Of a stretch of DNA of 26,571 nucleotides, positions 2 to 23,623 are shown in pieces. The notes beneath the pieces are model-generated. The model made no database searches. It saw nothing but the letters and a program-made list of their open reading frames with translations, and was not told where the DNA came from. A program made the translations under genes and the position numbers. Position 1 is the stretch's first letter, and each line of letters begins with the position of its first letter. Source of the stretch: a virus; the IMG/VR virus record IMGVR_UViG_3300021365_001169, positions 1-26,571 of that record. One strand, 5' to 3'.

Positions 2-358
2 CAGGTAGTCAGAGAACAAGAACGCAAAGAGTCTGGAATAGATCAACAAGATGGTTTAAATAAATCTAAGAAAAAACAAATATTATTTTTTACAGCAAGT
101 TGGTGTGGACCCTGCCAGAGTTGGAAGCAAAAAGAGTTGGCAAGATTTAAAACCAACCCTAAGTGGAAGATTTCAGAAGGGCCAGAGGCCATGATAAGGA
201 TTGTAGACATCGACAAACCATCTAACAAACAGCTAATGTTTAATAAACAAACTAGGGTAGTGCCTGAGTTTGTTCTAATGGTAAACGGTAAATATAAATC
301 CCATAAAACAGGTTATCAGTCTGCTGAAACTGTAGGGCGTATGTATAACCAATGGTGA
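2..358 (+). CDS. Thioredoxin-like protein (partial, 5' end missing)
   Basis: The frame is open from the window's left edge to the TGA at 356-358, so the N-terminus lies outside. It encodes a redox-active WCGPC motif (codons around 104-118) preceded by a hydrophobic strand (ILFFTAS), the usual beta1-alpha1 entrance of a thioredoxin fold. A VVPEF segment about 60 residues later fits the conserved cis-proline loop. A thioredoxin reduces disulfides in client proteins. A class II ribonucleotide reductase, which needs its C-terminal cysteine pair re-reduced by thioredoxin, lies about 0.7 kb downstream, so this is a plausible electron donor (inference). The in-frame TTG at 137 would delete the catalytic motif and is not the start. 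The fold assignment is firm; the physiological partner is not proven. Confidence 0.85.
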   Translation, partial: QVVREQERKESGIDQQDGLNKSKKKQILFFTASWCGPCQSWKQKELARFKTNPKWKISEGPEAMIRIVDIDKPSNKQLMFNKQTRVVPEFVLMVNGKYKSHKTGYQSAETVGRMYNQW

Positions 359-12072: not shown

Positions 12073-13109
12073 TGATAGTAACATATATAAGATCTTCAAG
12101 TTATAATAATTACGACTTCTGTCAAATGCAGTACTTTCTAACCTATGTTTTGGGGCATAGGTCTGATAGTAATAAAAAAGCAGACTTAGGAACTATGGCC
12201 CATAAGGTGATGGAAATTCTTGCTGGACTAAAAAAGTTTCAGCAGGATAACCCTAAAAGAAAATATTTAGTTATCGAGGACGATAAATGCGGTAAGATTA
12301 GAATCACAAAAGACGAACTTTACACGGACGAGTTCGTGGAAAGAATGTGTGAATTAGCAGTCACAGATTATGCAGAGGGATCAATTCATAACTTCACAAG
12401 GGGAGACAGGAAGGTTGTTAGAGATACTGTATTCACTTTTCTTAATCACTCAGACAGTCTTTTTGACCCAAGACAGAGAAACATTTACCACCCAGAAGCG
12501 CAGTTTGACATTCCTATTGAAGAAGATTGGGCTAAGTTTGAATACGAAATAGAAGGAAAAAAAGTCTCTGGTCAACTAGCAATCAAGGGAACTATCGACT
12601 TGACAACTTTGATAGGAGATGATACAATTGAAGTCATTGACTGGAAAAGCGGTCGTAGGATGGACTGGATAACAGGAGAGGTAAAAGACTATAAAAAGCT
12701 AGAACAAGACCCTCAACTGTTACTGTATTTCTATGCCATATCTAAACTATACAAAGATTTTCCTAATAGGATTATGAGCATTTTCTTTTACAAAGACAAA
12801 GATGGTAAAGTTGACCCAATGCCTTTTAGTATATGTCTTGGGCCGGAAGATGAGAAAAGATTCTTAAAAATGCTTAGAAAACAGTTTGAGGGAATAAGAG
12901 ACAATGTATCTCCTAAACCGTTAAAGGAGGACAGGAGTCACTGGAAATGTACGAAGCTGTGTCATTTTTACAAAAACAACTGGGAAGGTACAGACACTCC
13001 TATCTGCATCCATGTTGGCAACAAGCTAAAAGCAGACGGAATGAAAAAGACAGTAAAAGATTGCACTAAAAAAGGTTTTTCCATAGGATATTACGAGGCA
13101 CCGGGATGA
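12072..13109 (+). CDS. Cas4/RecB-like PD-(D/E)XK nuclease, probable Fe-S type
   Basis: This 345 aa protein carries the RecB-family nuclease motifs: GTMAH (H44), GTIDL (D176), VIDWKSG (D190, K192) and a following QLLLYFYA helix. Four cysteines, C17 near the N-terminus plus C293, C297 and C312 after the nuclease core, are placed like the cluster ligands of Cas4 and AddB. The spacing C-x3-C-x14-C differs from the compact Cas4 pattern, so the Fe-S cluster is inferred. Such enzymes are 5'-3' or ssDNA exonucleases for end resection. No CRISPR array or cas gene is present, so a replication/recombination role is more likely. It starts at TAATG overlap and ends in ATGA overlap with a glycosyltransferase. 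Confidence 0.75.
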   Translation: MIVTYIRSSSYNNYDFCQMQYFLTYVLGHRSDSNKKADLGTMAHKVMEILAGLKKFQQDNPKRKYLVIEDDKCGKIRITKDELYTDEFVERMCELAVTDYAEGSIHNFTRGDRKVVRDTVFTFLNHSDSLFDPRQRNIYHPEAQFDIPIEEDWAKFEYEIEGKKVSGQLAIKGTIDLTTLIGDDTIEVIDWKSGRRMDWITGEVKDYKKLEQDPQLLLYFYAISKLYKDFPNRIMSIFFYKDKDGKVDPMPFSICLGPEDEKRFLKMLRKQFEGIRDNVSPKPLKEDRSHWKCTKLCHFYKNNWEGTDTPICIHVGNKLKADGMKKTVKDCTKKGFSIGYYEAPG

Positions 13110-13981
13110 GAGAAATAAATATAGTAGGACATGAGGGTGAAAGTGGTTTTGAAAGAGATATGTTTGACCACCTATATCACGGCGTAAAATTAAATGAATA
13201 TAGCTATGACGACGACCCCTCTAAAATAGATAGGCCAGTTTTGGAATATTCTCACATGGGATTTGGTATCCCTGATGAAGTTGCTAATTTTGCAGAAAAA
13301 TTACCTAATGGATATCTCATATATCATAAGTCTAACGAGTTCCCATATCAACAATATCCTCAATTTATTCAACAAAAAGCAAATTTATATAAAGATGCCA
13401 TCCATGTCTTTAGACCTAATTGGATGCCGAGCTTCGATTTACCTAATGTAACATTTATGCCATTATTTTGGGGAAAAGGTCATGGAGAAATGAGAGAGCC
13501 TACAAAAGAGACAAAAAAGTTTAAAACTGCCATGATAGGCGAATTGAAGTCTGACAGAGCAGAAGTTCTAGAAGTAATGAAGAAAATGGAAGATCATTTT
13601 CATTATTTTAACAAGGGTTGGCTTTCTCAAGACATGATAACACCAGAACAATCTATGGATGTGTATGCAAATTCAGTAATTTGCCCCTGTCCTATGGGCA
13701 ATGTCCACCCAGAATGTAATAGATTTGCAGAGATTTTAAACTCAGGAGGCATACCGGTCTTGAAAGAGTACTGGAATCGCGACTGGCACTGTAGAATTTA
13801 TGGATTTGATTCTCCAATTCCGTTTGTTAAATCGTGGAATGAGCTTCCAGAAGTGTATAATAAGGTGATAAAAGAAGGTGTTTACAACTTTGCTATGAGG
13901 CTGCACCAGTGGTGGTACGCCAAGAGAATAGAAATCAGGGATAATTTTCAGAATATATTGCTGGAGAAGATAAATGTTTAA
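13106..13981 (+). CDS. Exostosin (GT47)-like glycosyltransferase
   Basis: This 291 aa protein has no signal peptide or membrane helix. The segment VICPCPMGN followed by PECNRFAEILNSGGIPVL (about residues 190-220) looks like the nucleotide-sugar-binding C-terminal lobe of exostosin/GT47-like and other GT-B enzymes, where a Glu in an (N/E)xxRxxEAL-type helix binds the donor. The first half is variable. It probably transfers a sugar in the cytoplasm, but acceptor and donor cannot be read. The gene ends 8 bases inside the first DUF1501 gene, linking glycan chemistry to the exported proteins. Confidence 0.6.
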   Translation: MREINIVGHEGESGFERDMFDHLYHGVKLNEYSYDDDPSKIDRPVLEYSHMGFGIPDEVANFAEKLPNGYLIYHKSNEFPYQQYPQFIQQKANLYKDAIHVFRPNWMPSFDLPNVTFMPLFWGKGHGEMREPTKETKKFKTAMIGELKSDRAEVLEVMKKMEDHFHYFNKGWLSQDMITPEQSMDVYANSVICPCPMGNVHPECNRFAEILNSGGIPVLKEYWNRDWHCRIYGFDSPIPFVKSWNELPEVYNKVIKEGVYNFAMRLHQWWYAKRIEIRDNFQNILLEKINV

Positions 13982-15248
13982 CCATATTCACATCGGACGT
14001 AGAGCTTTTCTTCAAACAAGCCTGTTTGCTGCTGCTGGAACCCAGTATGCGCTTGGCGAGCAAAAGCACTACGAAAGCGTTGAAGGTCAAGCAAAAAGTA
14101 TGATTTTCATATATCTTCCGGGCGGAATGGCCGCTCAAGAGACGCTTGACCCTAAAACTGTAGCCCCTCTAGAGTATCGTGGTTCTATGAAAGCGATCAA
14201 CACCAATGTTGATGGAATTCAGATCAATGAAAGATTTACAAAAACCGCGCAGATCATGGATAAATTGACAATTATCAGGAGCATGACGCATGGAGAGGCT
14301 GCACACGAACGAGGAACAAACAGTATTTTCACAGGTTACAAGCCTAGTCCTGCACTCCAGTATCCTTCTATGGGTTCTGTTGTGTCTCATGAGTTCGGTT
14401 CTAGGGATAATCTTCCTGCTTACATTTGTGTGCCGGAAAAACCCAACGAGTTTGCAGGAACCGGATATTTAAGCAATGCCTACGCTCCGTTTTCTTTGGG
14501 TTCTGATCCCGCTTCTGATAAATTCAAAGTTAGAGACTTATCTTTTAATGTGACTGACGAACAATTCATCAAGCGTAAAAGATTGCTAGAGATTGTAAAC
14601 AAAAACATGAATCAGAAAGTTAATTCTGATGCTGTAAAAGCTATGAATACTTTTTATGAAAAAGCTTACGATCTTGTTGGAGATCAAAAAGCTCAAGACG
14701 CTTTTGACATAGAAAAAGAAAAACCAGAAGTACGCGATAGGTACGGACGCAATACTGCTGGCGCAAGGATGCTTATGTCCAGAAGATTAGTTGAAGCGGG
14801 TGCTAGGTTTGTGTCGATGACTTATGGTAGTTGGGATATGCACCAAAATATCTTTGGCGGTATAGATTCTCAAGTTCCACCATTTGATCAAGCGTTTGCT
14901 GCGCTAATTCAAGACTTGACCGAAAGAGGGCTTTTGGAATCTACCTTGGTTTGTGTAGTGTCGGAGTTTGGAAGAACTCCTAAAATAAATAAAGATGCTG
15001 GACGCGACCACTATCCCAAGGTGTTTAGTTCTATCCTTGCTGGAGGTGGAATTAAAGGCGGCATGACTTACGGCAGAACTGATGCTACTGGTACAGAGCC
15101 AGAAGATAATCCAGTTCCTATTCCACACTGGGCGACAACTATCTATCATCAAATGGGAATAAATGCCGATAAAGAACTAATGGCTCCCGGAGATAGACCT
15201 ATTGAAATTGTAGATTTTGGTGAAGTAATTAAGGATATTATAGTATGA
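13974..15248 (+). CDS. Tat-exported DUF1501 protein, copy 1
   Basis: This 424 aa protein starts with a twin-arginine signal: R9-R10 in GRRAFLQ, a hydrophobic stretch rich in Ala, and a likely cleavage near YALG (about residue 28). The remainder matches DUF1501, a branch of the alkaline phosphatase/sulfatase superfamily. Visible markers are IIRSMTHGEAAHERG, YPSMGSVVSHE, SWDMHQN (D288, H290), SEFGRTP (E331) and AGRDH (D345, H346), which fit metal-binding positions. The GGxxxxxD opening of the family is altered here (PGGMAAQETLDP). A ribosome-binding GGAG lies at 13963-13966. Tat export means folded secretion to the periplasm. DUF1501 is typical of Planctomycetes and is unexpected in a phage operon. 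No enzymatic activity is established for this family. Confidence 0.88.
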   Translation: MFNHIHIGRRAFLQTSLFAAAGTQYALGEQKHYESVEGQAKSMIFIYLPGGMAAQETLDPKTVAPLEYRGSMKAINTNVDGIQINERFTKTAQIMDKLTIIRSMTHGEAAHERGTNSIFTGYKPSPALQYPSMGSVVSHEFGSRDNLPAYICVPEKPNEFAGTGYLSNAYAPFSLGSDPASDKFKVRDLSFNVTDEQFIKRKRLLEIVNKNMNQKVNSDAVKAMNTFYEKAYDLVGDQKAQDAFDIEKEKPEVRDRYGRNTAGARMLMSRRLVEAGARFVSMTYGSWDMHQNIFGGIDSQVPPFDQAFAALIQDLTERGLLESTLVCVVSEFGRTPKINKDAGRDHYPKVFSSILAGGGIKGGMTYGRTDATGTEPEDNPVPIPHWATTIYHQMGINADKELMAPGDRPIEIVDFGEVIKDIIV

Positions 15249-16477
15249 TTAACAGAAGACATTTTTTACAACATGCGGGTGGATTAGCGTCTGTATCCGC
15301 AGCGTCAACTGCGTTTGGTCAAAAGATCATTGATAGTCGTGAGGATTTAGGAAAGAACGAGAAGGGCGCAATCCTTATTTGGCTTAATGGCGGTCCTCCG
15401 ACTATTGATATGTGGGATGTAAAGTTTGGCGCTCCTACTGGCGGTCCAACAAGACCTATCACTACAACTGGCGACTTCCAAATCAACGAGCTTATGCCAG
15501 AGCTTGCAAAGCAAGGAAAAGATTTTTCTATTGTTAGAAATATGGCAACAAGAGAAGCAGACCACATGCGAGGTCGCTACTATATGCACACAGGCTTCAA
15601 GCCAAATCCAAATATGAGTCACCCATCAATGGGATCTGTAATATCTTACGAACTATCTCAAGATAGAGACTACCTAGAAATACCGCCATTCTTTTCAATT
15701 AGTACAGGAAGTATTGGTGGCGGGTTTCTGGGTTCTGCTTGGAATCCTTTTGTTGTAAGTTCAAACGGTCAAGTTAGAAACCTTGGCGATTCTGTAGATA
15801 ACGAAAGGATGCAAGCTCTTGCTGCGATAGAAACAGGTTTTGTAAAAAGAAGCAACAGTGACATGGCAAAGAGTCATATGAAAATGTTGCAACAAACATT
15901 TAGACTTAATACAAGCCCACAAATGAAAGCCTTAAAACCAACAGACGAACCTAAGAATGTAATTGACGCTTACGGCGAGACAGGATTTGGTAAGGGCGCT
16001 TTGATGGCGAGAAGGTTGCTTCAAACAGGTGTGCCATTTGTAGAGCTTGGCTTTGGCGGTTGGGACTTACACCAAAACACGCACGAAACGTTATCAACTA
16101 AACTTCCAGAATTAGACAAGGTAGTTTCTACTCTTATGCTGGATTTAAAACGTCTTGACATGTGGAACAATACTGCTATCGTTATGATGGGAGAATTTGG
16201 TAGAACTCCAAAAATTAATCAAAACGCTGGTCGTGACCATTGGGCAAGATGCTGGTCTGCATTTGTTTCTGGTGGATTAATTAAAGGTGGTCAAGCGATT
16301 GGCTCAACAAGCGACGATGGAAAAGAAATAACTAGCGATCTAGTATACTCGTCAGAAGATTTAATGATGACAATTTGCAAGTCTCTTGGAATTAGTACAG
16401 AAAAAAGTTATACAGCAAAGAATGGTCGCCCAATGAGAATTGCGAACAACGGCAAAATAATAGAAGGTTTGGTGTAG
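15245..16477 (+). CDS. Tat-exported DUF1501 protein, copy 2
   Basis: This 410 aa protein overlaps copy 1 as ATGA and has its own twin-arginine signal (R4-R5 in NRRHFLQ, Ala/Gly-rich core, likely cleavage near AFG at residue 25). It is closer to the usual DUF1501 pattern: NGGPPTIDMWD at the N-terminus, IVRNMATREADHMRG, GGWDLHQN (D274, H276), MGEFGRTP (E317) and AGRDH (D331, H332). The paralogue next door has the same motif order but differs over most of its length, so this is an old pair and not a recent duplication. An AGGA precedes the start. The stop TAG shares its G with the GTG start of the PAP2 gene. The substrate could be a phosphate or sulfate ester, or it may have no enzymatic role. 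Confidence 0.9.
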   Translation: MINRRHFLQHAGGLASVSAASTAFGQKIIDSREDLGKNEKGAILIWLNGGPPTIDMWDVKFGAPTGGPTRPITTTGDFQINELMPELAKQGKDFSIVRNMATREADHMRGRYYMHTGFKPNPNMSHPSMGSVISYELSQDRDYLEIPPFFSISTGSIGGGFLGSAWNPFVVSSNGQVRNLGDSVDNERMQALAAIETGFVKRSNSDMAKSHMKMLQQTFRLNTSPQMKALKPTDEPKNVIDAYGETGFGKGALMARRLLQTGVPFVELGFGGWDLHQNTHETLSTKLPELDKVVSTLMLDLKRLDMWNNTAIVMMGEFGRTPKINQNAGRDHWARCWSAFVSGGLIKGGQAIGSTSDDGKEITSDLVYSSEDLMMTICKSLGISTEKSYTAKNGRPMRIANNGKIIEGLV

Positions 16478-17007
16478 TGGATATTATATCAGAATTTAAC
16501 AAGTCACTTTCTTCAAGGCTAGACTCGGCTGTTTATACAAACAAAACGAGAACTTGGAAAGTACCAAAAATTATAACCATAGACTGGGAAGGCGTTTTAC
16601 CAGAGCCTCCTAAAAACACATCTGAAGAAACAAAGAAAGAACTTCAGTACTTAGAAAAACTAACAAGTAAGTTAGGCTATGAAGAAAAAAATCTAATAGA
16701 TCTTGTTGACAAAGAACCTTTAGATTTGTATAAACCAATCTTTAGTAAAATGGGAAAGCCTATCCCAAAGAAAGATTTTGAAAAAATATGGAAGATATCA
16801 GAGCCTATTGTAATGAACTTGAAACATAAGTTTAATAGGCCGCGACCCAAGCAGTTAGGAGATCTTTTAAATTACAAAATAAATGTAACAGAATCAAAAA
16901 CACACCACACCCCGGCTTATCCATCGGGTCATACCGTTTATGCGGCCTTGGGTGCTTACCTTTTTTCAGACATGTATCCACATAATCGTCTGAGTTTTTT
17001 AAAATGA
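16477..17007 (+). CDS. PAP2-family phosphatase, N-terminal 0-frame part
   Basis: A GTG start (TAGTG overlap with DUF1501 copy 2) opens a 176 aa frame. It contains PAP2 motif 1, K-x6-RP (KHKFNRPRP), and motif 2 PSGH (PAYPSGHTVYA), but stops at 17005 before motif 3. The missing motif lies immediately downstream in the -1 frame (17004-17150). The 0-frame ends with T TTT TTA AAA TGA, a TTTTTTA slippery heptamer three codons before the stop. The PAP2 superfamily (lipid phosphate phosphatases, class A acid phosphatases) hydrolyses phosphomonoesters. No signal peptide or membrane helix is visible here, so this looks like a soluble, cytoplasmic member. The truncated form should be inactive, since motif 3 supplies the nucleophilic His. 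Confidence 0.8.
   Translation: MDIISEFNKSLSSRLDSAVYTNKTRTWKVPKIITIDWEGVLPEPPKNTSEETKKELQYLEKLTSKLGYEEKNLIDLVDKEPLDLYKPIFSKMGKPIPKKDFEKIWKISEPIVMNLKHKFNRPRPKQLGDLLNYKINVTESKTHHTPAYPSGHTVYAALGAYLFSDMYPHNRLSFLK
16995..17001 (+). promoter_or_regulatory. Candidate -1 ribosomal frameshift site (TTTTTTA)
   Basis: The heptamer is in register as T TTT TTA with the PAP2 0-frame, the same slippery sequence as HIV-1 gag-pol. A -1 shift continues as AAA ATG ATA AAT into the frame coding PAP2 motif 3. A weak hairpin could form downstream (17011-17016 with 17037-17042, 6 pairs including one G-T, 20-base loop), 9 bases after the site. A miscalled homopolymer or translational restart at the ATG at 17004 are alternatives. 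Confidence 0.5.
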
Positions 17008-17150
17008 TAAATCTTGCCGGATTTGCTCGCTGCCTACAAGGTGTCCATTATCCATCAGACAACGAAGCGTCTATGGTAATCAGCGGTGCTATTTGGCAAG
17101 ATGTTAGATATAAATTATTTCCAAATTTACAACATTATAGGAGCAGATAA
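17004..17150 (+). CDS. PAP2 phosphatase C-terminal part in the -1 frame
   Basis: This 48-codon frame (ATG 17004 overlapping the TGA of the 0-frame as ATGA) encodes NLAGFARCLQGVHYPSDNEA, which holds PAP2 motif 3: R-x5-H-x3-D, with the nucleophile His and its Asp. The preceding Ala replaces the common Ser of SR. Its TAA overlaps the next gene's ATG as TAATG, as at several other junctions here, which supports this frame as the true gene end. Joined to the 0-frame part by -1 slippage it gives a product of about 224 aa with all three motifs. There is no good ribosome-binding site before the ATG at 17004, which argues against independent initiation, though coupling at ATGA is possible. Confidence 0.75.
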   Translation: MINLAGFARCLQGVHYPSDNEASMVISGAIWQDVRYKLFPNLQHYRSR

Positions 17151-19250: not shown

Positions 19251-19270
19251 TTGAAAGGAGATATTGATGA
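19251..19270 (+). repeat. Leader/RBS repeat, copy at dnaE
   Basis: TTGAAAGGAGATATTGATGA includes the strong AAAGGAG site and the ATG of the polymerase N-part. A copy differing at one base (A for T) occurs at 23668-23687 before ssb. The shared leader suggests co-regulation or similar translation strength for polymerase and SSB. Confidence 0.7.
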
Positions 19271-20934
19271 CTTGGTTCCCACTCTGTAATTACACGCACT
19301 ACTCACTGCTGAAAGGGTTTTCTAAACCCAAAGAACTTGCAGCAAAATGCAAAGATAACGACTTCCGCGCCTGCGGTATCGCTGACTACAAGACTATATC
19401 TGGCGCTGTGGCTTTCTATCAAGCTTGCGTAGCGAACAACATCAAGCCAATTATAGGCTGTTCGTTCGACAGCTTCACGTTGTTTGCGAAGAACGAAAGA
19501 GGATGGTTTGACCTTATAAAGATTGTGTCTTTGTTAGATGAAAATGGAGACTACAATGCAAGCGACTTATCTAAAATTTGCAACAAAGGAAACTTAATTG
19601 TTCTGGCAGAATCTGCTGCGGATTCGCCAATCAAAAAAAGCTGGTACGAGAAAAGTAGATGCTTCCAAGACTCGCATTACACAGAATCGGAAGACGCTAA
19701 TCTACACAGGATTTTGCTTTGCTCTGAAATGAAGACTACTCTTCCCAAATTGAGAAGGAAGTTCAAAAACAAAGAAGATTTTCCTAACAAAAAGTTTTTT
19801 GACTACTCTCATTTTTTTGTTCCAGATAAAACTGGAGCAACAGAAGCTATGCTTGAAGACCCAGTAGGAACACAGAATCTTGACGATATATACGATCAGT
19901 GTGAAGATTATAACATTCTAAGCAAACCTATTCTTCCTAAGTTTGATACCCCTAACGGAGAGTCAGAAAAAGATTATCTAAGGACACTGGCTAGAAGAGG
20001 ATGGAAAAATCTACTCGCAGAAAAAATCACAGAAGAAGAAGGTCGTCAAAAGTATGGAGACAGATTCAGGAAAGAATTTGAAGTTATTGAAGAAGCAGAT
20101 TTGTTTGGTTACTTTCTTATTGTTCGTGATATTATCAAGTATGCGGTAGATCAAGGTTGGATGGTAGGTCCGGGTCGTGGCTCTGCTGCTGGATGTTTAA
20201 TATCTTACCTGATTGGAATCACACAAATTGATCCGATTGAGTTTGACTTATTGTTTGAGCGCTTCTATAATAGTGGCAGAAACACCAAAGACAATGTGTC
20301 ACTTCCAGATATCGACATAGATATCCCCGGCAAGAAAAGAGATAAGATCATATCGTATATCAAAGATAAATACGGACACGGCAATGTTAGTCAGATGGTG
20401 ACGTTCGGTAGACTACAGGGGCGTAGCGCAATCAAAGAAATCCTACGTGTAAACGAAGCGTGTGGGTTTAGCGTGATGAACGAGATTACAAAATATATTC
20501 CAGACGAAGCGGCTATCTCTGATCAACTATCACAGATGGACGAGGAAGACAGATCTATTATTAGGTGGGCGTTGCAAAACAACGAACAAGACTTGTATGA
20601 TTATTGTCACATAAATGAGAAGGGTTACTTAGAAGGTGACTATGCAGAATATTTTGAACAAGCGATCAAGATAGAGGGTACGCTGAAAACTCAAGGCAAA
20701 CATGCTGCGGGTGTTGTTATATCAGCAAACAAACTATCAGAAGTTTGCCCTATGGTAAACTCAAAAAGTAGTGATGAAAAGATAGCAGGACTAGAAATGG
20801 CAGACTTAGAGGCACTTGGTCACGTTAAGTTTGACGTTCTAGCAATTAACCTGCTGGACAAACTTATGTATATTGACTACATAGTAGCCAATCCAGATTC
20901 CGTAAAAATGAAGGAAAATAATGTCGAACCGTGA
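19267..20934 (+). CDS. dnaE: DNA polymerase III alpha-like, N-terminal half (PHP and palm)
   Basis: This 555 aa protein is the first part of a C-family replicative polymerase. The N-terminal PHP domain is recognisable (THYSLLKGFSKPKEL, then GIADYKTISGAVAFY and NIKPIIG), but metal ligands look lost: the HxH motif reads NYT (residues 8-10) and TDH reads ADY. The palm holds GPGRGSAAG (from residue 301), PDIDIDIP (D348, D350) and VKFDV (D523), the full catalytic Asp triad. Sequence ends 32 residues after the last Asp, before the fingers. I chose the ATG at 19267 with AAAGGAG six bases upstream over the TTG at 19264. The rest of the polymerase is at 22064-23623. Confidence 0.92.
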   Translation: MTWFPLCNYTHYSLLKGFSKPKELAAKCKDNDFRACGIADYKTISGAVAFYQACVANNIKPIIGCSFDSFTLFAKNERGWFDLIKIVSLLDENGDYNASDLSKICNKGNLIVLAESAADSPIKKSWYEKSRCFQDSHYTESEDANLHRILLCSEMKTTLPKLRRKFKNKEDFPNKKFFDYSHFFVPDKTGATEAMLEDPVGTQNLDDIYDQCEDYNILSKPILPKFDTPNGESEKDYLRTLARRGWKNLLAEKITEEEGRQKYGDRFRKEFEVIEEADLFGYFLIVRDIIKYAVDQGWMVGPGRGSAAGCLISYLIGITQIDPIEFDLLFERFYNSGRNTKDNVSLPDIDIDIPGKKRDKIISYIKDKYGHGNVSQMVTFGRLQGRSAIKEILRVNEACGFSVMNEITKYIPDEAAISDQLSQMDEEDRSIIRWALQNNEQDLYDYCHINEKGYLEGDYAEYFEQAIKIEGTLKTQGKHAAGVVISANKLSEVCPMVNSKSSDEKIAGLEMADLEALGHVKFDVLAINLLDKLMYIDYIVANPDSVKMKENNVEP

Positions 20935-21598
20935 TATAATTGTTTTTGACTTTGAGACAGGCGGTAGAAATCCAGTTACATGTCAGCCAACTCAGTTGGC
21001 GGCGATAGCTTTGGATGGAAGAAACTTTAGACTCAAAGGTGAGTTTAATAGCAAGATTTGGGCAGAAACGGACGACGAAAAGGCCACAAAGAAAGGTCTT
21101 GGACCTATTGAGGATGGCGCACTAAAAGTTACAGGACAAACCAGAGAAGAAATAGCAAAAGCACCTAAACCAAAAGCTGTATGGAAAAAGTTTTGCGCTT
21201 TTGTAGACAAGTATAACTGGAAGGGAACTTCGTTCTTCGCACCCATTGCTGCTGGATATAACATTTTAGGATACGATATGATTATCGTAGACAGACTCTG
21301 TAAAGAATACGGACCTTGGGACGACCAAAGACAGAGACAGAAGCTGTTTCATCAAATTCATAAAATCGACATGATGGACAACTATTATATGTGGACAGAG
21401 GGAGATCCTAGTGTAAAATCTAGGAGCATGGACGCGATTAGAGACAGGATGGGTATGTCAACAGAGAATGCTCACGATGCCTTACAGGACGTAAAGGATA
21501 CGGCAAATCTAATGATTAAGTTTATGAAGACCCATCGCGCTGTATATAGAAACCTGAAACTTGAAAAAGCATTTGCGGATGGGAATACTTACCTATGA
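20921..21598 (+). CDS. DEDDh 3'-5' exonuclease (DnaQ-like)
   Basis: This 225 aa protein has exonuclease motif I VFDFETGG (D10, E12), motif II in AAGYNILGYD (D119), and motif III AHDALQDVKDTA (H185, D190), the DEDDh set of proofreading exonucleases. It is therefore probably the editing activity for the polymerase, whose own PHP domain looks inactive. The gene overlaps the end of the polymerase N-part by 14 bases and the HNH gene as ATGA, so it lies inside the gap of the split polymerase gene. A host-DNA-degrading or RNase T-like role is an alternative. Confidence 0.85.
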   Translation: MSNRDIIVFDFETGGRNPVTCQPTQLAAIALDGRNFRLKGEFNSKIWAETDDEKATKKGLGPIEDGALKVTGQTREEIAKAPKPKAVWKKFCAFVDKYNWKGTSFFAPIAAGYNILGYDMIIVDRLCKEYGPWDDQRQRQKLFHQIHKIDMMDNYYMWTEGDPSVKSRSMDAIRDRMGMSTENAHDALQDVKDTANLMIKFMKTHRAVYRNLKLEKAFADGNTYL

Positions 21599-22071
21599 AT
21601 TTAAGACAGCTAACTTTGTTTGAATTACCAGAAACTGCAAACCATGAAGTTTCTGATAAAGATGTAATTGATGTCAGTAAGATAAAAGCTAACTTTATTG
21701 GCGACAAAGAGATGCATAGAAAATCCAACATCATGATTTCTAAGTTAAACTCTATGAATTCTGGTAAATATTTCCTTCATAAGAATACTGGTGATTTTCC
21801 GTATGTAATAGGAACAAAGGGTAAAAAGTTATCCATAAGCACTACTAGAAATCAGTACCCCTGCATAGGTATGGGTGGAGTTGTAATAGCTATGCATAGA
21901 TTAGTAGCATTAGCATTTGTAGAAAATGATGACACTTCTAAAAAACTAGAAGTAGATCACATAAACGATGATAAGTCAGATTACAGAGTAGAAAACTTAC
22001 AGTGGGTAACAAACGGTTTTAACTCTAAAAAAGCTCAACAGAAAAGAAAAAGTAATAAAACTAATGATTGA
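21595..22071 (+). CDS. HNH endonuclease, probable homing enzyme
   Basis: This 158 aa protein ends with an HNH core: LEVDHIND (D121, H122, N124) and VENLQWVT (N134), preceded by MHRLVALAFVEN, the usual lead-in of phage free-standing HNH enzymes. The N-terminal half (about 80 residues) may carry DNA-binding specificity but shows no motif I recognise. It sits directly against the start of the polymerase C-part, overlapping it by 8 bases, and overlaps the exonuclease by ATGA. Such enzymes promote their own spread by cutting allele-lacking genomes, and they are known to split phage genes (Aeromonas phage Aeh1 nrdA split by mobE). Confidence 0.85.
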   Translation: MNLRQLTLFELPETANHEVSDKDVIDVSKIKANFIGDKEMHRKSNIMISKLNSMNSGKYFLHKNTGDFPYVIGTKGKKLSISTTRNQYPCIGMGGVVIAMHRLVALAFVENDDTSKKLEVDHINDDKSDYRVENLQWVTNGFNSKKAQQKRKSNKTND

Positions 22072-23623
22072 TTATAACGATGAAAAGACTTGGGATCTTT
22101 TTAAAGAAGGTAGAACTAAAGGTGTCTTTCAACTAGAAAGCAATCTTGGACGCGCTTGGTCCAAAAGACTACAACCTACCAACCTTGAAGAACTTGGAGC
22201 ATTGATCGCTTTGATTAGACCGGGATCGCTAAAAGCGATAACAGATGGCAAGTCTATGACTCAGCACTACGTTGATAGAAAAAGCGGCTTAGATGTAATT
22301 AAGTATTTGCATGAGTCGCTAACAGACGTATTGCAGTCCACCAAGGGTGTGTTGATTTATCAAGAACAGTCCATGCGCATTGCTCAAGAGCTTGCAGGTT
22401 TCAACCTACAAGAAGCAGACGTGCTTCGCAAGGCGATTGGAAAGAAGAAAGCAGACCTCATGGCTAAAGTTAAAAAAGACTTTCTAGAGGGGTGTGTGAC
22501 GCAAGCAATTGTAGACGTAGAAACCGCAGAAGAAATTTTTGGGTGGATTGAGAAGTCTTCTAGGTATTCGTTTAATAAGTCTCATGCAATTTGCTACGCA
22601 GAAAATTCTTATAAGAGCGCTTGGTATAAAGCTAATCATACAAAGCAATTCTTTCTGTCATACCTAACCTATGCGAATGAAAAGCAAGATCCGCACCAAG
22701 AAATATACGAGCTTGTTTCTGAGGCAAAGCTGTTTGACATTGAAGTAAAAATTCCTAAGATCAGTTTGTTTAATAGAACTTTTGGCGTTTATAAGAGCAA
22801 TGTTTACTTTGGTCTTAAAGATATAAAATCATTAACTGGTGTAAATGGCGACAAGGTTATAAACGCAATATCTGAAGCCTGCGCAACTACAAGTAAAAAG
22901 CCTAAGCACTTTACTTGGTTGGATGTACTTGTATATTTATCGCCTAAAATAAATGCAACAGCCTTTAAAGCTCTGTGTTCTGTAGGGTTCTTCTCTACGG
23001 AATCTATTGGCGTCACTAGAAATAAAGCTCTTTACGAATATCTAATATTTAAAAATCTAACAAAGGCAGAATTGAAGTGGCTGACATTAAATTACCCTGT
23101 GCGAAAGTGGAATAATCTTTACGATGCTTTCAAAGCACTATCGCCCACAAAGAAAGAAGGCGGTGGGACAAGCAAGGTTGATAGAAAGCAAGTCATAGAA
23201 AATGAGATGTTTTTCATAGAAAATCCTCCTTACGATCTTTCCGACGACCCAGAGTGGATCGTTGAACAAGAAAAGAAGTTTTTGGGATGCCCCATATCAC
23301 TATCTAAGGTAGAAGCATCTGACACTTCTCACTCTAACACTACGTGTAAAGAGATTTTAAATGGCAAACACGGCAAAGATATTTGTATAGTAGCAAATGT
23401 AAGCAGGTTGCAGAAGTATAAATGCAAAAAAGGCAAGAGTAAAGGCAAGGATATGTGTTTTCTAACACTAGAAGATGAAAGCTGCTCTATTGACAACGTG
23501 GTAGTCTTTCCAGAGACCACAGAGAAAACTAAATACATACTAGACGAAGGTCTTAACTTATTATTCTGTGGAGAGGTAGAAAAAGATGGCTCATTTATTA
23601 TTAATAAAATACATGAAATATAA
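22064..23623 (+). CDS. dnaE: DNA polymerase III alpha-like, C-terminal half (fingers to OB)
   Basis: This 519 aa protein continues the polymerase. YNDEKTWDLFKEG aligns with the DDKKSFDML region of E. coli DnaE, followed by GVFQLES, IALIRPGS, GVLIYQEQSMRIAQ, ADVLRKAIGKKK and FNKSHAICYA, all fingers-domain signatures. A Cys/Lys-rich C-terminal region (ICIVANVSRLQKYKCKKGK, then CFLTLEDES) fits the OB-fold domain. Counting both halves gives about 1,070 residues, near a full C-family enzyme, and no conserved motif appears lost at the break. The halves would have to associate non-covalently. No intein ends are seen. It starts at an ATG overlapping the HNH stop. Confidence 0.92.
   Translation: MIDYNDEKTWDLFKEGRTKGVFQLESNLGRAWSKRLQPTNLEELGALIALIRPGSLKAITDGKSMTQHYVDRKSGLDVIKYLHESLTDVLQSTKGVLIYQEQSMRIAQELAGFNLQEADVLRKAIGKKKADLMAKVKKDFLEGCVTQAIVDVETAEEIFGWIEKSSRYSFNKSHAICYAENSYKSAWYKANHTKQFFLSYLTYANEKQDPHQEIYELVSEAKLFDIEVKIPKISLFNRTFGVYKSNVYFGLKDIKSLTGVNGDKVINAISEACATTSKKPKHFTWLDVLVYLSPKINATAFKALCSVGFFSTESIGVTRNKALYEYLIFKNLTKAELKWLTLNYPVRKWNNLYDAFKALSPTKKEGGGTSKVDRKQVIENEMFFIENPPYDLSDDPEWIVEQEKKFLGCPISLSKVEASDTSHSNTTCKEILNGKHGKDICIVANVSRLQKYKCKKGKSKGKDMCFLTLEDESCSIDNVVVFPETTEKTKYILDEGLNLLFCGEVEKDGSFIINKIHEI

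Follow-up and report, generated by a model that had tools for sequence, protein, structure and literature searches.

A virus record of IMG/VR, IMGVR_UViG_3300021365_001169, whose 26,571 nucleotides form the window analyzed here, carries two consecutive genes for proteins of the DUF1501 family, A (P0001, 424 amino acids, positions 13974–15248) and B (P0002, 410 amino acids, positions 15245–16477), both on the plus strand. Each was defined by its open reading frame (ORF), its Pfam match, a start of the twin-arginine translocation (Tat) type and a fold model of the alkaline phosphatase (AP) superfamily. We favor the reading, with a probability of about 0.45, that A and B are host-derived proteins which would be exported by the Tat pathway and plug into the PSCyt/PSD1 system of the host, altering a process of the envelope or periplasm; a competing or masking role ranks second and a plain hydrolase function third.

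Membership of A and B in DUF1501 was assigned from the curated cut-off of the family (27 bits), which both exceed with full-length coverage of the profile. PF07394 was the sole Pfam match of either protein, at 368.3 bits for A (E 7e-110, residues 40–423, profile positions 1–390 of 390) and 303.4 bits for B (E 3.6e-90, residues 40–409, profile positions 2–389 of 390). An initial annotation had placed two DUF1501 genes here, with GRRAFLQ and NRRHFLQ at their starts, ALG and AFG at the putative cleavage ends, and WDMH or WDLH, EFGRTP and GRDH further on; the genes and all of these motifs are present in the translations. The junctions it described can likewise be read in the sequence: 8 bases (13974–13981) are shared with the upstream gene, A and B overlap in ATGA (15245–15248), and the stop codon of B and the GTG of the following gene share base 16477 in TAGTG.

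The locus is firmly of phage origin. Over its whole length the window is 99.9% identical to G002, an IMG/VR contig of 162,690 bp that has a terminase large subunit (TerL; phrog_2, 1.6e-25), a tape-measure protein match (1.2e-22), a long series of structural-size genes and a weak match to a major head protein (6.8e-4). As phrog_2 also matched 11 of 14 control genomes, this profile was not used alone and TerL was then tested as a protein; its best-covering GenBank matches are 26–27% identical over about 70%. Of the window, 21 kb also agree, at 99.97%, with a second contig, G001. A bacterial or chimeric assembly at 13.9–16.5 kb would fit a family that is otherwise bacterial and a GC content slightly raised at the locus (0.42, against about 0.38 for the window, though the stretch at 1–2 kb also reaches 0.416). 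However, the same junctions occur in G001 and G002, many related loci repeat the A–B pair with these replication genes next to it, and PSCyt2, the usual neighbor in bacteria, was not found in G002. We therefore rejected contamination and consider a chimera to have a negligible probability. The claim that the two genes are integrated in a phage, rather than part of a contaminating fragment, thus holds on the overlaps, the identity to G001 and G002 and the recurrence.

Both proteins begin with a twin-arginine sequence. The putative signal of A covers residues 1–28 (GRRAFLQ to ALG; 13974–14057, plus strand) and has a low predicted local distance difference test (pLDDT) score in the model, and that of B covers residues 1–25 (NRRHFLQ to AFG; 15245–15319, plus strand). 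The RRxFL-type motif was recognized by pattern and conservation, and the hydrophobic stretch and small-residue cleavage sites by eye. When the pattern RRx[FLIVM][LIVMF] was sought in the first 35 residues of the 147 ORFs of G002 (at least 100 amino acids, called mechanically), it occurred in three, two of which are A and B. The RR pair is kept in 45 of 46 aligned phage DUF1501 rows, the remaining row being cut at the locus edge. The twin-arginine starts proposed in the initial annotation are thus borne out by motif and conservation, and these starts suggest that A and B are exported, as folded proteins, through the host Tat pathway.

Related genes recur in other phages. In IMG/VR, 33 loci were found for A and 24 for B, and of the 34 records behind them 30 contain PF07394; the remaining four are contigs that break off within the gene. 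Among 37 related loci that were labeled, with some contigs represented twice, B directly follows A in 21 and a Cas4-like exonuclease lies at most three ORFs upstream of A in 18. Phage DUF1501 genes also occupy a second genomic context, without replication genes, and one 32-kb contig (G005) has two different A genes near its opposite ends, representing both contexts (L077 164–1438 and L078 9344–10618). A third type, C, lies upstream of A in some phages, and types X1 or X2 are found in others; the numbers of relatives (C 133, of which 80 were kept; X1 37 loci; X2 47 loci) include overlaps between lists and cross-matches between types. A C-type gene in G431, a phage contig of 173,842 bp, directly follows a gene (L271 6798–7757) whose product is a trypsin-like protease with a start resembling a signal peptide.

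The initial annotation had also suggested looking for the pair in phage genomes with a terminase, and related genes were found on terminase-bearing contigs. Sixteen contigs of more than 100 kb (related contigs span 100–195 kb), chosen from matches to DUF1501 or PSCyt queries, have 1–4 DUF1501 matches each, so that the presence of DUF1501 in all 16 mostly follows from how they were chosen. The G002 terminase was matched in nine of these 16 (11 of the 21 records tested), with main pieces 53–77% identical; in G449 the terminase is in two pieces with internal stops. A less biased count comes from the best 80 of at least 600 terminase matches in IMG/VR, where all three of those on contigs over 100 kb are accompanied by DUF1501, and 13 TerL contigs of 19–57 kb have none, as fragments might. 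Among 50,697 GenBank phage records P0001 had no counterpart at E up to 1e-5, nor did P0002, C, X1 or the phage PSCyt protein at E up to 0.01 (X2 was not queried), and PHROGs returned no match for A or B. The best viral fold match in a library of predicted structures, A0A6J5M742 (‘DUF1501 domain-containing protein [uncultured Caudovirales phage]’, E 1.4e-9), resembles A and B in family name and phage origin but is 15% identical in that alignment.

The bacterial relatives point to Planctomycetota. The best 80 of at least 547 matches in the bacterial collection are nearly all titled Planctomycetota, at 59–66% identity, and in trees (39 of the 78 bacterial A rows were used) the phage rows adjoin Planctomycetota rows for both A and B, in agreement with the planctomycete affinity expected by the initial annotation. 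A quick tree split phage A in two; in the approximately unbiased (AU) test a single phage-A clade was not rejected (p 0.518), and a single phage-B clade was marginally rejected (p 0.039, with only five bacterial rows). Phage A shares with the Planctomycetota subfamily the RR start and the same invariant motifs, in addition to the 59–66% identity, but members of the main phage clade differ from it by H54A together with six more changes that are fixed or nearly so, and the surroundings differ too, since PSCyt2 was not found in G002 and a PAP2 gene is present there. In five planctomycete genomes, B had 54, 77, 101, 132 and 175 matches, of which the best is 55% identical. A and B were thus likely captured from Planctomycetota, which would also be the likely hosts.

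Two top-scoring ‘bacterial’ matches, from the metagenome-assembled genome (MAG) TB57 of SAR202, had suggested an origin in Chloroflexi. This was rejected, as these are misbinned phage contigs: their gene order is the phage order, the same MAG has on another contig a terminase 76% identical to that of G002, and an IMG/VR contig of 166,833 bp carries a C protein identical to that of the MAG. The TB57 phage contigs are L079, L084 and L272 (VFHP01000007.1, VFHP01000013.1 and contig C9), with the terminase on C9 and the DnaB, primase and DUF1501 synteny on the other two.

Both genes are under strong purifying selection. The mean ratio of nonsynonymous to synonymous substitution rates (dN/dS, NG86) was 0.026 for A (12 of 105 pairs) and 0.075 for B (23 of 91 pairs), pairs with dS of 1.5 or more being left out. 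Between the locus L005 and the window, A is 99% identical, at RecA 78%, DnaB 75%, primase 55% and Cas4-like exonuclease 84%. The conservation of A in L005 and the low dN/dS may reflect constraint combined with exchange between phages. As expected of a host gene that has become established in phages, the family has phage rows beside Planctomycetota rows in the tree, low dN/dS and recurrence in related phages.

A lead to a function is the linkage of these genes to PSCyt and PSD1 domains. Of the 78 bacterial A loci, 64 have a PSCyt2/PSD1-like gene on the same strand no more than 6 kb downstream (median 2.7 kb), and one has it upstream; among the 65 loci where the downstream sequence extends 3.5 kb or more, the count is again 64. 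The profile used was built from six proteins, three from phages and one from L080, a locus itself among the 78, where the gene order is DUF1501, PPC-domain protein, PSCyt2-PSD1, PSCyt1-WD40. For planctomycete orthologs of B, PSCyt2-PSD1 adjoins in both of the two that were profiled. The same association is found in some sister phages: in G432 (135,790 bp, terminase 75% identical), a PSCyt1-PSCyt2-PSD1 gene (8.6e-14, 3.2e-79 and 8.4e-71; L269 586–4570), with a signal-peptide-like start and two CXXCH motifs, overlaps an RR-DUF1501 gene by 11 bp, and similar genes are present in L275–L285. Viral relatives of the G432 protein were found at 17 loci, of which 13 keep both CYSCH and CARCH; an ORF with the RR pattern follows in 13, in 11 of them with an 11-bp overlap. 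L280 and L284 (G447 and G450) were missed by the RR pattern, yet have DUF1501 genes beside PSCyt2, and L286 and L289 are cut by the contig end. In Planctomycetota, 37 of 59 genomes have relatives of the G432 protein, the best-scoring at 39–42%. PSCyt1-PSCyt2-PSD1 (DUF1549/DUF1553) is therefore a neighbor of DUF1501 in bacteria and forms a two-gene module with it in some sister phages, but was not found in the close relatives of the window, G001 and G002. The PSCyt and DUF1501 genes of G432 come after a gene for a thioredoxin-like protein that has a hydrophobic start. The window and G002 also have a thioredoxin-domain protein (window 2–358, G002 130226–130960), with a hydrophobic N-terminus in G002 and perhaps exported, that could bear on cytochrome or disulfide chemistry.

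To what extent the two proteins could be ordinary enzymes was considered from their predicted structures and motifs. AlphaFold models of A and B (pLDDT 86.8 and 81.3) have as their best matches a venom phosphodiesterase of the nucleotide pyrophosphatase/phosphodiesterase (NPP) kind, with Z 20.2 and a root-mean-square deviation of 3.2 over 246 aligned residues for A, and Z 19.2 and 3.4 over 249 residues for B. The profile search of solved structures gave no match at E below 0.06. Conserved residues were read from an alignment of 137 rows (46 from phages and 91 from bacteria, A-like for the most part), which were collected with A, B and C as queries and so do not sample the whole family; phage ORFs cut at an edge and bacterial ORFs shorter than 395 residues were left out, and N-terminal extensions were trimmed to the Met before RR. 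Both A and B carry the motifs common to the aligned relatives (GG, H111, WDxH, EFGRT and GRxH). H111 (codon 14304–14306, plus strand) and W287, D288 and H290 of the putative metal site WDMH (14832–14843, plus strand) are invariant in 137 of 137 rows, and E331 and F332 of EFGRTP (residues 331–336; 14964–14981, plus strand) and H346 of GRDH (residues 343–346; 15000–15011, plus strand) are kept in 136, the remaining row being a gap.

Some of these residues depart from those of canonical AP-superfamily enzymes. In a profile alignment (whole match E 0.061), E331-F332-G333 stands opposite the sulfatase D-H-G, so that E-F-G is found where the canonical Asp-His of this metal motif is expected; the other putative ligands, D288, H290 and H346, are kept. 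A very weak profile match pairs the conserved T120-G121 with the Thr-Gly located after the active-site Cys of sulfatases, and since H111 lies nine residues earlier it apparently occupies, judged by this spacing, the slot of the catalytic Ser, Thr or formylglycine. A and B are thus alike to NPP phosphodiesterases, sulfatases and LtaS in overall fold but differ in having E-F-G instead of D-H-G and apparently a His at the presumed nucleophile slot. The initial annotation had expected an AP fold with intact metal ligands, of which the fold was recovered, and intact ligands are not supported by the sequence (E-F-G for D-H-G, and A54 for a His).

It had also proposed action on phosphate or sulfate esters in the host periplasm. 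In a fuller form of this idea, A and B would be auxiliary metabolic phosphatases or sulfatases of the AP superfamily which free phosphate, sulfate or sugar from periplasmic esters, with the PAP2 phosphatase encoded alongside. This is unlikely, and the least likely of the readings weighed for their role. Phages with AP-fold phosphatases for phosphate supply are known, such as cyanophages with phoA; the fold of A and B (Z 20.2 and 19.2 against NPP-type phosphodiesterases) is that of the superfamily, D288, H290, E331 and H346 are conserved, and PAP2 was labeled in 17 of the 37 loci. Against these stand E-F-G in place of D-H-G, the His apparently at the nucleophile slot, the change of H54 to Ala in the phage lineage and the bacterial linkage, which is to cytochrome-type genes. 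PAP2 is also not constant: among the 16 loci with DUF1501 and no PAP2 label, eight end less than 400 bases past the last DUF1501 gene, but L022, L024, L030 and L031 extend more than 8 kb beyond it and seem truly to be without PAP2, a frequency that makes a hydrolase slightly weaker at unchanged odds. Ordinary phosphatase or sulfatase chemistry is therefore not supported by the sequence, which is compatible with other chemistry.

Position 54 provides a further difference. Of the 20 phage A rows, 18 have Ala at this site (A54, codon 14133–14135, plus strand); the two from TB57 have His there, like every one of the 78 bacterial A rows. The change from H54 to Ala is thus fixed in the main phage-A clade (18 of 18). 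The residue is Thr in most B and Gln in most C, and the position thus looks like one that separates subfamilies. On another reading, A and B could be non-catalytic or competing copies of host periplasmic proteins that remodel or mask the cell surface, for superinfection exclusion or as a dominant-negative block of the host module. The fixed change in a protein whose other motifs are kept under strong constraint, the 1–4 paralogs per contig and the position of the DUF1501 genes near a glycan-biosynthesis cluster in G002 are consistent with such a role. We nevertheless consider it improbable, though second in rank: the remaining motif residues are intact, which is what an active protein would show, the loss of H54 need not mean inactivity because the position varies among paralogs, and a cytochrome half, as carried by some sister phages, would be odd for a mere blocker. 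At 88–104 kb in G002 (L061–L062), beside the DUF1501 block, are genes for NAD epimerases, a cytidylyltransferase, a DegT aminotransferase and an HMGL-like protein, and with these nucleotide-sugar and glycan genes the phage may build a glycan of its own.

The reading that we favor, action with the host PSCyt/PSD1 system, would proceed as follows. Genes captured from Planctomycetota, the likely hosts, would be expressed early or midway in infection, as is suggested by their place among replication genes; A and B would fold in the cytoplasm and then leave it through the Tat pathway of the host. Once in the periplasm, they would replace or compete with host DUF1501 subunits genetically tied to PSCyt1, PSCyt2 and PSD1, a partnership suggested by the genetic linkage. 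The process altered, perhaps a glycan-related one of the envelope or periplasm, could serve nutrient supply, envelope remodeling or the exclusion of other phages, and some sister phages encode the cytochrome half too. In a wider form of the same idea, which we hold tentatively, large phages of Planctomycetota carry their own parts of the PSCyt/PSD1-DUF1501 system, with one to four Tat-exported DUF1501 proteins and in some cases a full operon of two genes, for a diheme cytochrome and a DUF1501 protein, and A would be a copy re-tuned by H54A that acts through host cytochromes.

Several observations weigh against action with the host PSCyt/PSD1 system. PSCyt2 was present in five of 52 records (51 virus records and one MAG) and not found in the other 47, including G001 and G002, so that a partnership in these two phages needs a host protein. 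The His that all bacterial relatives of phage A retain is missing from the phage protein, which therefore may not share the role of the host protein. Export is predicted from the motif alone, and one paper on DUF1501 clusters with signal peptides reads these as Sec signals (PMC4452313). DUF1501 is also found outside Planctomycetota, in two of 14 control genomes, Caulobacter and Deinobacterium. A search of 392 Planctomycetota genomes with TerL gave 11 matches, all weak (best 31 bits); with matches so few and weak, no integrated copy ties the phage to a host. Finally, for the bacterial PSCyt/PSD1/DUF1501 system itself a carbohydrate role is only a suggestion, made from gene context (PMC5615132). 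DUF1501/DUF1800 genes are reported to accompany bacterial chitin synthases, and a twin-arginine motif was noted there (PMC5122149).

Around the pair, A and B lie in a block of replication and nucleotide-metabolism genes, between the Cas4-like exonuclease and DNA polymerase III. The upstream gene (13106–13981, plus strand), which overlaps A by 8 bases, has an RXYLT1_C-like, glycosyltransferase-type domain and is labeled in two of the 37 related loci, those of G001 and G002. Downstream, the PAP2-family gene (16477–17007, plus strand) stops prematurely, since near 16984 its length differs by one base from that in the near-identical contigs G001 and G002, where the gene is intact; the premature end (window 16900–17010) is either a sequencing error or a real mutation. 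At 19264–23623 the DNA polymerase III alpha subunit is encoded as two ORFs with an exonuclease-like ORF between them, a split that recurs in related loci; in the window a 158-residue ORF, HNH-like by eye, also lies between.

The initial annotation knew of no described phage role for DUF1501. None was found in the open-access full-text literature, a scope that leaves absence unproven, and one protein of an uncultured phage is already so named. DUF1501 and phage are mentioned together in a paper with a 61-residue weak domain match in a Pseudomonas phage (PMC5418858) and in one with a Dickeya gene table (PMC6329079). The same literature held nothing on point for PSCyt, PSD1 and DUF1501 together, for a phage-encoded or planctomycete-specific viral cytochrome, for Tat with auxiliary metabolic genes or for phages infecting planctomycetes. 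Few phages of Planctomycetota appear to be described in this literature; one, Phage-ZRK32 of a deep-sea planctomycete, is 21.9 kb long and has other auxiliary genes, with no DUF1501 in the text (PMC10945688).

DUF1501 and PSCyt/PSD1 are families of uncharacterized proteins that are numerous in Planctomycetota. Genes that bring no gain during infection tend to be lost from phages, so that the retention of DUF1501 genes, one at a dN/dS near 0.03, suggests that their products have an immediate value in the host periplasm. The phage genes come in compact sets, A and B or PSCyt plus DUF1501, that could be expressed and assayed. The findings also suggest Planctomycetota as hosts, at least in part, of an uncultured group of phages that counts 600 or more terminase relatives in IMG/VR, and some of its members would ship c-type cytochromes. 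If the wider form of the proposed role is true, these genes would represent a class of viral genes for periplasmic redox or glycan processing that is new, and would offer a way into a protein system that has 54–175 DUF1501 matches per genome in five planctomycete genomes. The phage DUF1501 and PSCyt genes are thus a lead to how phages may rework the outer compartment of their hosts.

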